From Anaerolineaceae bacterium (GTDB taxonomy: Bacteria > Chloroflexota > Anaerolineae > Anaerolineales > Anaerolineaceae): a DNA stretch of 64,000 bases. The DNA lies in assembly GCA_002702705.1 (NCBI GenBank), contig PABH01000049.1, positions 124,001-188,000 of the forward strand, written 5' to 3'. The notes beneath the pieces are model-generated. The model was not told the DNA's origin. It worked only from the letters and a program-made list of their open reading frames with translations, and ran no database searches. This document shows, piece by piece, positions 8,013 to 52,100 of the stretch (the stretch's first letter is position 1; the number at the start of each line of letters is the position of its first letter). The position numbers and the translations under genes were made by a program.

Positions 8013-10007
8013 TTATCGAATCACAAGTGGAATAAAGACCATATAATTTTCTTCAACGGTCAGTACCATTGTTGTTTCAGTAAAGCTTCTTTCCCAATAT
8101 TTACCCGTTGGCAAATCCGGCAGATTGACAGTCTCAAAATCTCCGCTGTAAGAAGCAAAATTGAGAACTTCAAACTGGTCACCAGCAGCAGGAATAAAAC
8201 CATCCAACAAGGTTATATTCAACGTTCCAGCGAAAGCTGCCGAACCCTCAATTACCAATACATCAAATTCCGTTTCAGCTGTTGTTCCACCAATTTCAAT
8301 CTCCAATCCTCCGGCTGAAGTTTGTGTATAATCCCCGGTGACCGTGATTTTTCCTGGCGAGGTTCCAGGTGCTACGGTGCCCGCATTGTTTAAATTACCA
8401 TCCACTGTGCCTATTCCGCTTAAGGTTGCACCCTGCAAATCCAATGGGCCGGTGCTTTCGAGATTACCACCCAAAACAATTTCTGTTCCGCTTGTGGAAG
8501 TTAACCCGTCGGGAAAAACCAATGTTCCGGCTTCGACGAAGATTTCACCAGCATTTGTAAAATCGATATTCATGGTCGTTGTGGTGCTGTCTGTTTTCTT
8601 AACAAATAAACCTTGATTATCAAACAAACCATCCGTCCCACCGTTCATACTGGTTGTAGCCTTTGCCTCAAACGTCCCCTCGTTGGTAAAAGCAGCATCA
8701 TTACTGAGCGTGATCGTGTTGGCTTCCCATTTGGCTGTGGATTGGTTGATCAATGTTTGACCGGAGAGACTTAAACCGCCCACGCCAAACATACGATAAG
8801 TTGAACCTGTCAATACGGTGGTTGTGCCGGTTCCGTCAAAAATACCGCCATACCATAACAACTCTGTGGATACATCCCAATCACCTAGATTGGTTAATTG
8901 GGATGAATTACTAACCCTTAATTTCGGCTGTATCAGGCCAGACAAACTGGCAGGCAAACTCATGTGACACTGTGACAGGGTGATCTTTTCCGATAAAGCC
9001 ATAATCGTTGCAGCTTCCTGAAAAGCCAGCGATCCGCCACCCTGACATGACAGGGTTGTTCCGGTTGTTATAGGGATATTAAACGTGCCGGAAACATCCA
9101 AATTCGCTCCATCGATGAGTACGTTTGAGGTCGTAAGACTGGAACCATTTTGAAATGTATGCTCCACCAGGCTAACAGTATCAGCATTATTAAATATAAT
9201 CCAACTACCGGGCTGTCCGTTGATCGATCCAGTGTGGGTTCCGGAGCGAGACAAAGTAAGTATTCCCGTTTCCATTTGAATAGTTCCAGTATTATTCAAA
9301 ACCACTTTGCTGGTTACCGTACCGCCATCATAGATCATGATCGTACCGGCATTTTCAACCAGGCCATTCCCTGGATAGTCCTCACGTTTAAATAATTCAA
9401 TATCGGCCCCGCCGTTATTAACGTTAAAAGTGCCGTTATTGGTTAATATACCACCGCGATCAATTATAAAACCATAGGCATTGGATTGGTTCATGACACC
9501 CTCATTGATAAAGTGACGCTCATACAATCTTTGGTAGGCTGCCGTTTGAAATGATAAGGATGCACCGCTGTTGAGGGTAGTGGTCCCGCTGCCATCCATC
9601 AGGCCATCATCCGCGCCCACATCACTGCCCCAATACATGGAACCCGTGATTTCCAAATTACCCAAACCGGTTAAGTGTCCAAACAAATCAAAACTGCTTA
9701 CCGTCAATGTGCTGCCAAATCCAATATTCAAGACGCCGTTACTGTTAATTGTGAGTGTGTCTATGGTGGCATCTGTCGTAAGAATCGGATCGATACTGAC
9801 ATTTCCAATCACCACATTATCCCCGCTGCCGGGAACCCCTCCGTTGCAACTACTCCAATTTCCGGCGGTATTCCAATCCGTCGTTGAATCCCCTCCTGTC
9901 CAGATACAAGTAGCGGCTTGGACTGGCTGAAAATTACCCATTAGTAATAATAAAACAACCGCCAGCATCGTCCCGATCCGCAAACCTTTGTTGATTCGTT
10001 TTTTCAT
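8013..10007 (-). CDS. Exported beta-rich (autotransporter-passenger-like) surface protein with C-terminal FIPLVIR tail
   Basis: A signal peptide (KKRINKGLRIG, then a hydrophobic core ending PVQAA) is followed by about 560 residues rich in Gly, Thr, Asn and Ser. Recurrent short units such as FTNEGTFEA, LTNNGTFNV, VENAGTIMI and VDGNLNNAGTVAPG are typical of parallel beta-helix passengers. The C-terminal region (GTSPGKITVTGDYTQ, FEVLNFASYSG) resembles the last passenger segment of autotransporter-like proteins, but no outer-membrane barrel follows; the protein ends MVFIPLVIR. The same kind of tail ends the giant protein at 49135-55764. AGGAGG lies 5 bases before ATG 10007. Likely cell-surface or secreted structural/adhesive protein; no enzyme motif seen. 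Confidence 0.75.
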   Translation of the reverse strand: MKKRINKGLRIGTMLAVVLLLLMGNFQPVQAATCIWTGGDSTTDWNTAGNWSSCNGGVPGSGDNVVIGNVSIDPILTTDATIDTLTINSNGVLNIGFGSTLTVSSFDLFGHLTGLGNLEITGSMYWGSDVGADDGLMDGSGTTTLNSGASLSFQTAAYQRLYERHFINEGVMNQSNAYGFIIDRGGILTNNGTFNVNNGGADIELFKREDYPGNGLVENAGTIMIYDGGTVTSKVVLNNTGTIQMETGILTLSRSGTHTGSINGQPGSWIIFNNADTVSLVEHTFQNGSSLTTSNVLIDGANLDVSGTFNIPITTGTTLSCQGGGSLAFQEAATIMALSEKITLSQCHMSLPASLSGLIQPKLRVSNSSQLTNLGDWDVSTELLWYGGIFDGTGTTTVLTGSTYRMFGVGGLSLSGQTLINQSTAKWEANTITLSNDAAFTNEGTFEAKATTSMNGGTDGLFDNQGLFVKKTDSTTTTMNIDFTNAGEIFVEAGTLVFPDGLTSTSGTEIVLGGNLESTGPLDLQGATLSGIGTVDGNLNNAGTVAPGTSPGKITVTGDYTQTSAGGLEIEIGGTTAETEFDVLVIEGSAAFAGTLNITLLDGFIPAAGDQFEVLNFASYSGDFETVNLPDLPTGKYWERSFTETTMVLTVEENYMVFIPLVIR

Positions 10008-10039
10008 CATTTCCTCCTGAAAATATATTTGAAACCCTG

Positions 10040-45499: not shown

Positions 45500-47056
45500 A
45501 TGAATGATACGATGGTGGTTTTGGACTTTGGTTCACAGTACAGCCAGCTTATTACACGCCGAGTGCGTGAGGTGGAGGTGTATTGTGAAATGTTTCCGTG
45601 GGATATAGACCCCAAAAAAGTATTGGCGCTCAACCCGAAAGGGTTTATCCTCTCCGGCGGCCCAAATTCCGTTTATGCGGATGGAGCACCGCAGCTGCCG
45701 CAGTATGTGTTGGATTCCGGACTGCCGGTTTTGGGAATTTGTTACGGCATGCAGGCGCTGACCTTTGCCCTGGGTGGAAAAGTAGCTCCGGCAAACGAAT
45801 GAGAGTTTGGACCAGCCGAAATTACCACCATTACACCGAATTCTTTAATTCCGACCGGATCACAACCGGTGTGGATGTCTCATGGGGATCGCATTGAAAC
45901 CATGCCGGATGGTTTTGAACGCCTGGCTGTCAGCCCGAACAGCCCTTACGCAGCGATGGGTGACTTAAAACGCGCTTATTTTGGTGTGCAGTTTCATCCC
46001 GAAGTGCGCCATACCCCGGGTGGTTTAGAACTATTACGCCGCTTTGTGGTGGATATTTGCGGTTGTGAGCCGACCTGGACCGCTGAATCGATCATCGAAC
46101 AAAGTGTGGAACGTATTCGTGCCCAGGTAGGTAATGAACGTGTTTTGGTTGGTGTCAGCGGCGGTGTTGATTCATCGGTTGCGGCGGCCCTTGTGTTCCG
46201 TGCAATTGGCGATCAATTGGTGGCTGTTTTTGTCGATAACGGTTTGCTGCGGAAAGATGAACGCCTGCAGGTGGAGCAGGCTTTTACCCAAAACTTAGGC
46301 GTTGAATTGATAACCATAGACGCCATTGAAGAATTTATGGATGAATTGGAAGGTGTAACCGATCCTGAGAAAAAACGAAAAGTGATCGGACGCACCTTTA
46401 TTCGCGTTTTTGAACAGGCGGCATTAAATGCGGGAAATCCAGGCTTTTTGGTGCAAGGCACCATTTATCCGGATGTAATTGAATCCAGTGCGCCGGATCG
46501 GAATAAAGGACACGTTATTAAATCCCATCATAATGTAGGTGGTTTGCCGGAAGATCTTTCGTTTCAATTGGTGGAACCGCTGCGTTATTTATTTAAAGAC
46601 GAAGTTCGGGCGGTGGGTGAGGCCCTGGGTTTGCCGGTTGAATTGGTTTGGCGGCAGCCTTTCCCTGGGCCGGGGTTGGCGGTGCGCTGCCTGGGCGATT
46701 TAACCATGCAGCGTCTGGCAACCTTACGCGCGGCCGATGCGATTTTCACGGCTGAACTGGAAAAAGAAGGTTTGTTGGGAAAACGCAGGAAAGCGGATGA
46801 CCCCGGTATTGCTCAAGCCTTTGCCGTACTGCTGCCGGTGAAATCAGTGGGTGTGATGGGGGATGTGCGCACCTATCAGGAAGCTGTTGCATTACGGGCG
46901 GTGGCAACCGACGATTTTATGACCGCCGATTGGGCACGTTTGCCCTATGATTTGCTGGGCCGGGTTGCCAACCGTATTGTGAACGAGGTGCCGGGCATTA
47001 ATCGCGTCACCTACGACATCACCAGCAAACCACCAGCCACCATTGAGTGGGAGTAA
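45500..47056 (+). pseudogene. guaA: GMP synthase (glutamine-hydrolysing) interrupted by one in-frame TGA
   Basis: The whole 518-codon frame matches GuaA from MVVLDFGSQYSQLITRRVRE to KPPATIEWE. The only defect is TGA at 45800-45802 (codon 101), in PANE-stop-EFGPAE, where GuaA has NEREFG; CGA to TGA would explain it. The glutaminase triad is C81 (GICYGMQ), H166 and E168 (FHPEV), so the stop separates Cys from His/Glu. The synthetase domain ([14 protein letters not shown]) follows intact. Without readthrough only a truncated glutaminase and, if reinitiated, an ammonia-dependent synthetase could be made. GuaA is normally essential in de novo GMP synthesis, so sequencing error, readthrough or a second copy must be considered. 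Operon with xpt. Confidence 0.85.
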
Positions 47057-49134: not shown

Positions 49135-52100
49135 TTAACGTATAACCATTGGAATAAACACGTGGTAAGTATCAGGCAGAATCTCCAGATTCAAAATATT
49201 TGAAGTGCCTTCTGCATAGGCGGAAGTTTCAATGTATCTGGCTGTGACCGGGTAGTTTCCTACGGTCAGGTCGGAAACCTGTTCGCTGACCGCTACACCA
49301 TTCACCAGGGTAACCGGGCTGCCGAAGGCGGTGCCATTGATGTAAAACTGGATTGTCCCTTCCGGTGTTCCTTCACTGGGTGCAATACCAGCAGCAGTGG
49401 CAGTCCACTGTAAATTACTTCCAACAATGGCGGAGGTTGGCCCGCTGATGGTTACTGAAGTGTTTGCCTGCGTTACGACTGGGCCGGGTTCTTGAACGGC
49501 GGGGGCAGGATTATAGTTGCTGTTTCCACCAAAATTGGCTTCTAAATCTGGGTTGCCGCTGTTGGATGGAATAAGTTCGCAGCTTCCCTGACCGTTTTCA
49601 TCCAATGTAACTACGCAGCTGTCCGTGCCGTTCGTGACTTCAATTGTACCGCTGGGGTATCCGGTACCTGGAGCATCTACCTGAGCCTGTACGGTAACGG
49701 TCACGGGTTGGCCTACCACCGGATTTTCTGGTGTAAAGTCCATTGAAACGATTGAAACACTGGCTGGTGTGACAGTTGGTCCGGTTTCAGCTTGGGAGGT
49801 GGATTGGGCGTAGTTTGAATCACCTTGATAAGTTGCATAAAAATCAGGTGAACCCACTGCGCTAGGTGAAAGGAAACAGGATCCGATTCCACCAGTCAAC
49901 GCGGCAACACATTCATCCGTACCGTTGGAAACCAGGACATTTCCGGATAAAACAGGCATGTCCATTAACATCATCTGCATCAAACTTTCCGGCAGATCAG
50001 CTGGGGTGGGATCGGGGTCTATAATTACGGAAACACTAACCTCCACGGGCTGGCTGACGACCAAAGCTGTTTCCGATATGTTCGTAATTGTTGTAATGGT
50101 TGGAGCTTTGCCGACAATGGGACCGGGAATTTGACCACTGGTTGCACTCTTGAAATGGATGTCGCCGATATAGGTTGCTTGTAAATTCACTTGACCAATA
50201 AAGGAGGGTGTCAATTCACAGCTTCCTTGCGCCGCTCCATCCAAATTAACAACACAATAATCAAAACCGTTGGTTACAGTCACTGTACCAGTTGGCAGTC
50301 CATTTCCGGGCGCTTTAGGTGATACACTGACATCTACCAAGGTCGGCTGTCCTAAATACAAGCTGGTTGGATCGTAATGTTCAATGATAACAATCGATTC
50401 AGATTTGGAAACGATTGGTCCAGCAGCGGGATCATCAACGATGGGATTAAAGTTGCTATCTCCGGGATAGTTTATCGTAATCGTTTCTGCTGAGGGCGTG
50501 GTAACCGTCGTAGGTGCGTAGGTACAACTTCCTGAACCTTCATTTAAGGTGATTGTACAGCCTTCGCTGCCGTTACTAATCGTCACCGTTCCGGAAGGGA
50601 TTCCATGACCGGGTGATTGGACACCAACGCTCAGACTGACGGTTGTTATCTGCCCAACGACGGGGTTGGTTGGGTTAAATATCAGGTTTAGGATTTCCGT
50701 ATTCGCTTTGATTACGATAGCACCGGTGACAGAGTCGGATGTTGAGGTTTGGTAGTTGGTATCGCCCTGGTAAACGGCTGTAAAGGTCATGCCGGTGTCT
50801 GCTGCCGTTGGGGATGTCGGGCGTAAATTACAAGAACCGCTGCCTGATGAAAGGGTAACTGTACATTCATCGCCGTTCTCGTTACTGATGACCACAGAAC
50901 CAGTCGGTGTGCCGCTGCCGGGTGCAACCGAAACGACCGAAACGGATACCAGGGTATCTTCTCCAACAACAATTGTTCCATTGTCAAAAGCGGTGATTGA
51001 TGTTGTTGTAGCGGCTTGGGAAACGGTTGGACCTGTTACAGGATCAGAAACAACTTCGTTAAAATTGGTATCTCCGGAATAACTGGCGGTCAAATCACCG
51101 GAAGCGATGGTGGTTGGTTTAAAGGTGCAAGTGCCGCTGCCGCTGCCATCCAATGTGATTTCACAGGTATCACCTAAACCATTACTGATCTCGACCGTTC
51201 CGCTGGGGATGCCAACCCCGGGCAAAACAGCGGAAACGGTTATAGTTACTGTGGTTTCTTCACCAACCACAAGGGTCATATCTGCAATCGAATCGAAATG
51301 AATACTTGCATCGGCTTTGTTCACATTGTGGGCATTGGTAAATTCAAAAGGAGCCTCGTCACCAACAGATGAATATTCTAGATAATAATCGTCACCACTG
51401 TAATCGACTGTGATGGTATGGTCACCAACCGATAACGTATTAATAGTGGGGGTTGTTGCTTGTCCACTACCGTTCAGGGTTAATGCGCCTCCTAATGGAT
51501 TTCCATCCAAATATACCTGGACTGTTCCCGAAGGTTGAATCAGGTTTGTGGCGTGACTTACGGTCACTGTGAAATCAACGGCTTGACCAAAAACAGAAGG
51601 ATTCACAGACGCCTGAACATCTGCTGAAGCGTAGGCTTTGAGAATTTGGTGCGAATATGGTGTAGATAAATTATCAGTGGAACCAAAATTAGGGCTGTTG
51701 CTCGTAAAAACAGCCGTCCAGTTATGTGTTCCTACCATCAGGGTTGTGAATTGTAAGACCTTTACTGCCTCACCGTTCACAACGGTTACACCAGAACCAT
51801 AATTCGCATTCTGTAATTTGAACTGAACGCTACCTGTTGGGACAGCAAGGCTTGGTGAATCAGCAACAATGGTTGCTGTGATCGTCACAGTATCGCCGTA
51901 ACGCGAAGGATTTGGATCGGTTAAAAGGGTCAGGCTGGTACCGACTTGAATCACCTCTTGCGTGATGTTTCCGGAAACGCTGGTGTTGTAATTTGAATCA
52001 CCGAGATATTCAGCCCGTACTGTATAATTCGATACATCCAGATCCCAAATGCTGCTGCTTTGTGCTAAACCGGAGATCAGGGCAACCGGTTCACCAAAAG

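Follow-up and report, generated by a model that had tools for sequence, protein, structure and literature searches.

The described systems closest to the C-terminal tail considered here are GlyGly-CTERM/rhombosortase (TIGR03501), LPXTG/sortase (TIGR01167), the signal of the type IX secretion system (T9SS) and two entries of a model library. In GlyGly-CTERM, as in the Chloroflexota tail, a C-terminal tag is all that the many exported proteins have in common. The accessible part of PMC3237569 describes the GlyGly-CTERM tag as a motif, a transmembrane helix and a basic cluster; the Chloroflexota tail, in contrast, has no helix. The same difference separates it from LPXTG, which ends the Georgenia and Oceanitalea homologues of a subtilase that bears the tail in Chloroflexota. 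The T9SS signal is, in the accessible part of PMC11285876, a domain of 67 to 108 residues found in outer-membrane bacteria; its likeness to the tail is that the extreme C-terminus matters and an extension is tolerated, whereas the Chloroflexota tail takes up 8-10 residues and occurs in genomes without an Omp85 match. The two library entries are the NCBIfam 20.0 models NF050076 (sort_motif_YLP) and NF053834 (ultrashort_CTERM), both titled "YLP-box putative sorting motif-containing protein", 11 and 10 positions long and with curated cut-offs of 15 and 10 bits, respectively. Compared by model name, length and cut-off, they describe the same place, length and core as the tail, and so the tail is already described, its commoner form having been named a putative sorting motif by NCBI. 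A search of a paper library, which included the peptide letters and was made under terms other than the name YLP-box, listed no paper on it.

The window analysed here is a stretch of 64,000 nucleotides of an Anaerolineaceae genome (contig PABH01000049.1). The initial annotation had reported that two unrelated exported proteins of this window, P0001 and P0002, end at their very last residues in nearly the same tail (Table 1), and both points held: the two ends were confirmed by reading the sequences and lie far beyond chance (see below), and Pfam and NCBIfam scans found no domain common to the two carriers, leaving the signal peptide and the tail as the only shared features found. It had also given the P0001 frame as 8013-10007, where 10007 is in fact a second in-frame ATG, the frame running 8013-10010. 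P0002 comprises 16 Big_3_5 stretches together with DUF11, while the profile scans of P0001 gave no Pfam or NCBIfam family over cut-off. As further annotated, LPXTG, PEP-CTERM and T9SS were absent: none of these models matched either protein (E up to 1), no GlyGly-CTERM model did so, and neither tail has a transmembrane helix. Thus, the window tails show neither the combination of motif, helix, basic end and sortase that marks LPXTG proteins, nor a PEP-CTERM or GlyGly-CTERM end, nor the signal domain of T9SS cargo. Elsewhere in the window, the plus-strand frame at 45500-47056, which we take to be a GMP-synthase-like gene (guaA), is broken by one in-frame TGA (45800-45802) and otherwise reads through.

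Table 1. The two tail-bearing proteins of the window and their parts (window positions).
Feature	Position	Strand	Remarks
P0001, exported repeat protein, 665 aa	8013..10010	-	solenoid of beta-strands by prediction; matches no known family above cut-off
P0001 signal peptide, ~32 aa	9915..10010	-	assigned by eye; cleavage probably after VQA
P0001 C-terminal tail, MVFIPLVIR	8016..8042	-	stop codon 8013-8015
P0002, giant exported Ig-repeat protein, 2209 aa	49135..55764	-	Big_3_5, DUF11
P0002 signal peptide, ~25 aa	55690..55764	-	assigned by eye; putative cleavage site
P0002 C-terminal tail, HVFIPMVIR	49138..49164	-	stop codon 49135-49137

P0001 had further been called beta-helix-like. A structural model built from two sequences was nearly all beta-strand, with ten-residue mean pLDDT values of 67-93 across residues 231-550 and values below 50 in the last 59 residues (607-665), tail included. 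A Foldseek search of the PDB gave no match at E 0.001, the best being autotransporter passengers at E 0.014 or weaker, and so the beta-helix-like fold is only a prediction. A 180-aa tail protein modelled from one sequence was uninformative (mean pLDDT 58). Relatives of P0001 comprise two partial plasmid matches (28% and 35% identical) and a homologue in G168 (L220:10000-11754:-, 39% identical), in which YLPLIVK aligns opposite FIPLVIR, tying the FIP form of the tail to the YLP form. The two YLP-box models surfaced when 30-residue fragments were scanned at E 10 and did not appear in a full-length scan at E 0.01; in the fragment scan NF050076 matched 61 and NF053834 51 of 114 tail proteins (E up to 10, not all over cut-off), and neither matched the FIPLVIR and FIPMVIR fragments of the window. 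The window tails therefore miss the score of these models and share with them a short, extreme C-terminal position on an exported protein; since the models are known and the YLP and FIP forms are tied by alignment, we class the window tail with that known putative motif, as one of its divergent forms.

To set the tail against chance, we searched the window genome (G000, 5.89 Mb) with a degenerate DNA pattern encoding the tail and a stop codon and used the reversed pattern as control, which gave 44 matches versus 5. Thirty of the 44 were inspected, and 21 were found to close long open frames (at least 225 aa), 4 to carry TGG in place of the stop and 5 to close frames of 7-32 aa. The codons matched vary between genes, as seen by reading, indicating that it is the peptide, not the DNA, that is kept. 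On four whole contigs of the same genome (990,912 bases, 810 called genes), a strict motif, [YF][LIVM]P[LIVMF]{3}[RK] ending at the last residue, occurred nine times, compared to a mean of 0.0035 and a maximum of 1 when the last 60 residues were shuffled (2,000 shuffles). A looser motif found 14 genes on these contigs, which hold 17% of the genome, and by extrapolation the genome would encode roughly 80 tail proteins. We then assembled 1,914 genes from stretches of seven Chloroflexota genomes, using a home-made gene caller and a home-made signal-peptide caller; the stretches were picked around pattern matches, without regard to export, with the exception of the four whole contigs. Across these ~772,000 residues the strict motif fell at the last residue in 95 cases, one to three residues short of it in 3 and elsewhere in 7, and when its residue classes were permuted into 840 orders, four nearly identical orders scored 76-79 and the next best scored 2. 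Positions that had played no part in the selection were also biased, with V, I or L at position -8 in 81 and F or Y at position -10 in 40 of the 114 tail proteins. The last residue was R in 80 and K in 23 of them, five carried one or two further residues after the tail, and five had a transmembrane-like stretch within their last 80 residues. Chance is thus excluded as the source of the shared tail, whose consensus at the carboxyl end is [VI]-[YF]-[LI]-P-[LMV]-[VIL]-[VIL]-[RK]. Tail genes also occur in clusters of three, at G000:C16:154910-166050 and G000:C51:76441-90745.

The tail is confined to exported proteins, and to these as a module joined to quite different bodies. Enrichment on exported over cytoplasmic proteins, as the initial annotation had anticipated, was pronounced: the strict tail was found in 73/227 genes of the signal-peptide class, compared to 3/786 genes lacking a hydrophobic N-terminus, with 6/310 in the signal-peptide-like class, 13/519 in the transmembrane class and none in the 72 lipoproteins of the 1,914-gene set. 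Inspection by eye of the 13 transmembrane-class carriers revealed a signal peptide in 10, an unclear N-terminus in 2 and a gene cut by the stretch edge in 1. Of the three carriers without a hydrophobic N-terminus, one runs off the stretch edge, one starts near a contig end and the third, L150:8946, combines a perfect tail with an N-terminus in which no signal peptide is visible. One of the 14 loose tails of the four contigs, a weak YVPLITN, belongs to C30:103491, which by eye has a lipoprotein-like start.

In other bacteria, choice-of-anchor domains lie in front of sorting signals that can stand in for one another. In the 114 tail proteins, NCBIfam scans (E up to 0.01) identified choice-of-anchor domains Q (7), J (4), T (3) and Z (3), as well as tandem-95 and DUF11 repeats; an alignment of the choice-of-anchor Q proteins was too poorly conserved to serve as a search query. 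Pfam matches were frequently to Ig, cadherin, fibronectin and PKD domains, with carboxypeptidase-regulatory domains also present, and the enzymes included subtilases and an alpha-amylase. This exported amylase (L189) has the tail, which is absent from the five homologues among the matches listed, of which four were classed as non-exported and the fifth as a lipoprotein.

The initial annotation had stated that variants of this tail are common on exported Chloroflexota proteins, and this proved real, the variants being seen across genomes of the phylum and among the subtilase homologues described below. Within the class, genomes with at least 20 pattern matches span at least six families. We also counted the excess of matches over the reversed control in 301 genomes of the phylum. 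In the window's own family this excess was large in G000 and G168 and small in G104, G176 and G290; it was also large in most of family f23, in a single genus of f33 (G070) and a single genome of f59 (G166), and there was none in families such as f18 and f28. These counts miss variants, as indicated by a Herpetosiphon aurantiacus subtilase homologue that ends in IFMPLVSKS, and by genus g50 of f33, which is tail-poor by the pattern although NF050076 matches in its genome G034. A variant-like tail, F[VIM]PFV[VF][KRQ], was noted in G080 (f2, g7), where the pattern gave 9 matches versus 7 for the reversed control.

The most telling comparison came from a single secreted subtilase family, which we followed across named genomes (best 80 of 559 relatives), calling the tail with a loose pattern tolerant of as many as five additional residues. 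Among these best 80 of 559, 22 loci were titled as Chloroflexota; 6 were cut, and of the 16 complete subtilases, query included, 15 had the tail, the 16th ending in SIFIPLLPNN. Within the same best 80, none of 50 complete subtilases from other phyla had it (54 loci, 4 cut), and of four loci with no phylum in their title, one did (RI_153). Instead, 15 of the 50 other-phyla proteins close with a hydrophobic stretch and a basic terminus, 2 of them with LPSTG and 13 glycine-rich, and of the remaining 35, 3 have an SLH-like end, 5 a GFE tail and 27 no recognised anchor. Thus, 18 of these 50 homologues from the best 80 of 559 end in LPXTG-, GlyGly-CTERM- or SLH-like anchors and 32 have none that is recognised, so that the notion that the tail replaces an anchor rests on a minority of them. 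Ten of the other-phyla ends were scanned with NCBIfam: the Georgenia and Oceanitalea ends both passed the LPXTG cut-off, five of seven gammaproteobacterial ends passed that of GlyGly-CTERM with the other two just below it, and the one Acidimicrobiia end gave a NEAT-protein profile only, its SLH look being a judgement by eye. None of the 635 genes in the 54 other-phyla loci among the best 80 of 559 carried the tail, compared to 18 of 212 in the Chloroflexota loci, of which 16 were the subtilase homologues themselves, so that little is gained from the genes flanking the Chloroflexota subtilases.

To summarize, the tail is used in Chloroflexota where homologues from other phyla carry known kinds of anchor, and with 15/16 versus 0/50 it behaves as an alternative surface-sorting signal; one and the same subtilase carries phylum-specific C-terminal solutions, that of Chloroflexota being the tail. 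An undescribed sorting or anchoring signal, as first proposed, is therefore borne out comparatively, by the choice-of-anchor domains and the subtilases, as regards sorting or anchoring, and falls on "undescribed", given that NF050076 and NF053834 exist. Two other kinds of end were observed in this family. Helix-free GFE tails (DLIFQHGFE, DLIFMHGFE, GIFGHGFED) close the Lysobacterales/Lysobacteraceae subtilase homologues L288, L294, L298, L302 and L273; no NCBIfam tail model fits the three that were scanned, and they are possibly an analogous, undescribed C-terminal tag. Two Desulfobulbaceae ends, LFFPLRGKDGKTSIINLN and LFFPIKGKEGKTSVILLK (L274:12851-12940 and L284:12824-12913), are alike and have no NCBIfam match.

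We consider it probable, judging from the comparative sequence evidence, that the tail is a portable surface-sorting or anchoring tag of Chloroflexota. A protein would be made with a Sec-type signal peptide and cross the membrane, whereupon its last 8-10 residues, lying outside the folded domains, would be picked out, in the envelope, by a factor dedicated to them, and the protein thereby retained at, or attached to, the cell surface or wall. Recognition outside the cytoplasm, retention or attachment as its outcome and the singleness of the factor are what we infer here. As neither a transmembrane segment nor a lipidation site adjoins the tail, by what means it would keep a protein at the surface is not readily apparent.

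Several candidate readers were assessed. Exosortase was rejected, exceeding its cut-off in only 1 of 30 genomes, as was a route by way of an outer membrane: Omp85 was matched in none of the 30 (controls matched in 7/14), which fits a single-membrane envelope and makes a type IX-like outer-membrane route unlikely. A class C60 sortase could in principle read the LP core, as LPLV and LPMT resemble LPxT, LPMT and LPLT variants do occur among the tails, and the sortase family (PF04203) is present in 40/51 genomes, the window's own included; yet no sortase was matched in the tail-rich G168 (97% complete, 26 tail proteins read) or in G200, and the motif is not followed by a transmembrane helix, making this the least probable of the readings considered. 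Nine families recur near tail genes in at least 3 of the 7 genomes, one of which is the C25 (gingipain/PorU-like) cysteine peptidase, the others appearing by eye to be large or housekeeping-like. The four f33 genomes of the sortase panel (G034, G043, G070 and G078) each have a C25 domain and a sortase domain separated by ~1 kb.

The initial annotation had suggested looking for a co-occurring membrane protease or export gene, and of this a protease was found in association, with nothing fixed as the machinery. In the 301 genomes a strong C25 match (E <= 1e-50) was present in 24/30 genomes with a tail excess of at least 3 versus 18/271 others (p 7e-19), and within the class a C25 match at E <= 1e-20 was present in 42/45 genomes with an excess of at least 5 versus 105/184 (p 1e-6), and C25 in 61/73 with an excess of at least 3 versus 86/156 (p 3e-5), all p-values that overstate the association since the genomes are related and differ in size. 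In a panel of 30 genomes, C25 was found in 13 of 15 classed as having the tail, in G034 as well, and in none of 14 others; weak cases among the 15 were G276, with two matches only, and G057, in which, as in G288, the three places inspected were short, unlikely or stop-less frames, so that both G057 and G288 were left out as evidence against C25. By way of control, the M6 peptidase was present in 14/301 genomes, 2 of them with a tail excess. In G012 and G061 a C25 gene is only ~0.1 and ~1.2 kb away from a further tail gene, and the C25 proteins of G012, G061 and G166 bear the tail themselves. Paired C25 genes within a few kb of each other, of ~1030-1100 and ~740 aa, were also noted in Anaerolineae genomes, for instance in G384:C14, G411:C129, G344:C6, G370:C101 and G088:C9.

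These observations give some ground for a reading in which the secreted C25 peptidase is itself the reader, cleaving near the tail and joining the protein to an envelope molecule, in effect a PorU-like sortase step that needs neither a type IX system nor an outer membrane. Besides its co-occurrence with the tail and its place near tail genes, all three C25 proteins read matched the NCBI PorU model, with 279, 186 and 174 bits (about 173-279), in regions that extend beyond the catalytic core, and the nearest solved structure was PorU for the G061 protein and gingipain R for that of G168. None, however, reached the PorU cut-off of 420 bits. PorU orthologues keep an Arg 32 residues after the catalytic Cys (accessible part of PMC4560394), and in the three proteins the catalytic GHG and Cys are present while this Arg is absent in all, Ser standing at +32 and Gly facing the Arg where HMMER aligns the G168 protein. 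Being tailed, the C25 proteins may be mere cargo, though PorU too is a C25 protein that bears its signal uncleaved (accessible part of PMC11285876), and a tailed C25 therefore fits cargo and PorU-like enzyme alike. Three of the 45 tail-rich class genomes, all incomplete to some degree, have no strong C25: G407 (26 tail matches versus 0 reversed, 87% complete, C25 E 8e-6), G488 (9 versus 2, 97% complete, C25 E 6e-4) and G321 (8 versus 0, 83% complete, no C25). Conversely, C25 occurs in the majority of genomes of the class that show no tail excess. C25 thus co-occurs with the tail and, as its reader, is associated only, not proven; we regard this reading as unlikely, and as similarly doubtful the wider proposal that tail and C25 might together form a stripped-down, outer-membrane-free counterpart of type IX attachment, made of an ultrashort peptide and a secreted PorU-like transpeptidase.

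Two further readings dispense with anchoring. The tail may be a secretion or release signal, which would help proteins through or out of the envelope instead of keeping them on it; it is carried by soluble enzymes, subtilases and an amylase among them, and an anchor-like segment is rare beside it (5/114), but many of its cargoes are adhesin-like repeat or choice-of-anchor proteins and, with Omp85 at 0/30, there is no known second membrane that would need such a signal, so that we think it improbable. Still less likely is a cap for chaperone docking or protease protection, serving survival or folding with no role in location: the tail is a short hydrophobic segment at the C-terminus and closes on a basic residue (R or K in 103/114), which would suit a cap, and yet the strict form is absent from all 72 lipoproteins, which fold in the same place, and homologues from other phyla do without the tail. 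A surface-sorting or anchoring tag thus remains our preferred explanation.

What had been a model-library name becomes, once homologous subtilases are compared, a functional claim that can be tested. The signals compared here consist of a motif with a helix (LPXTG, GlyGly-CTERM) or of a whole domain (type IX), whereas the tail consists of about nine residues, and a surface tag of this size would be a useful tool. If the pairing of tail and C25 were true, it would tether dozens of adhesins and hydrolases to the Chloroflexota surface. Many of the roughly 80 tail proteins extrapolated for the window genome are adhesin-like or hydrolases, and knowing the reader of the tail would help explain how Chloroflexota build their surface.
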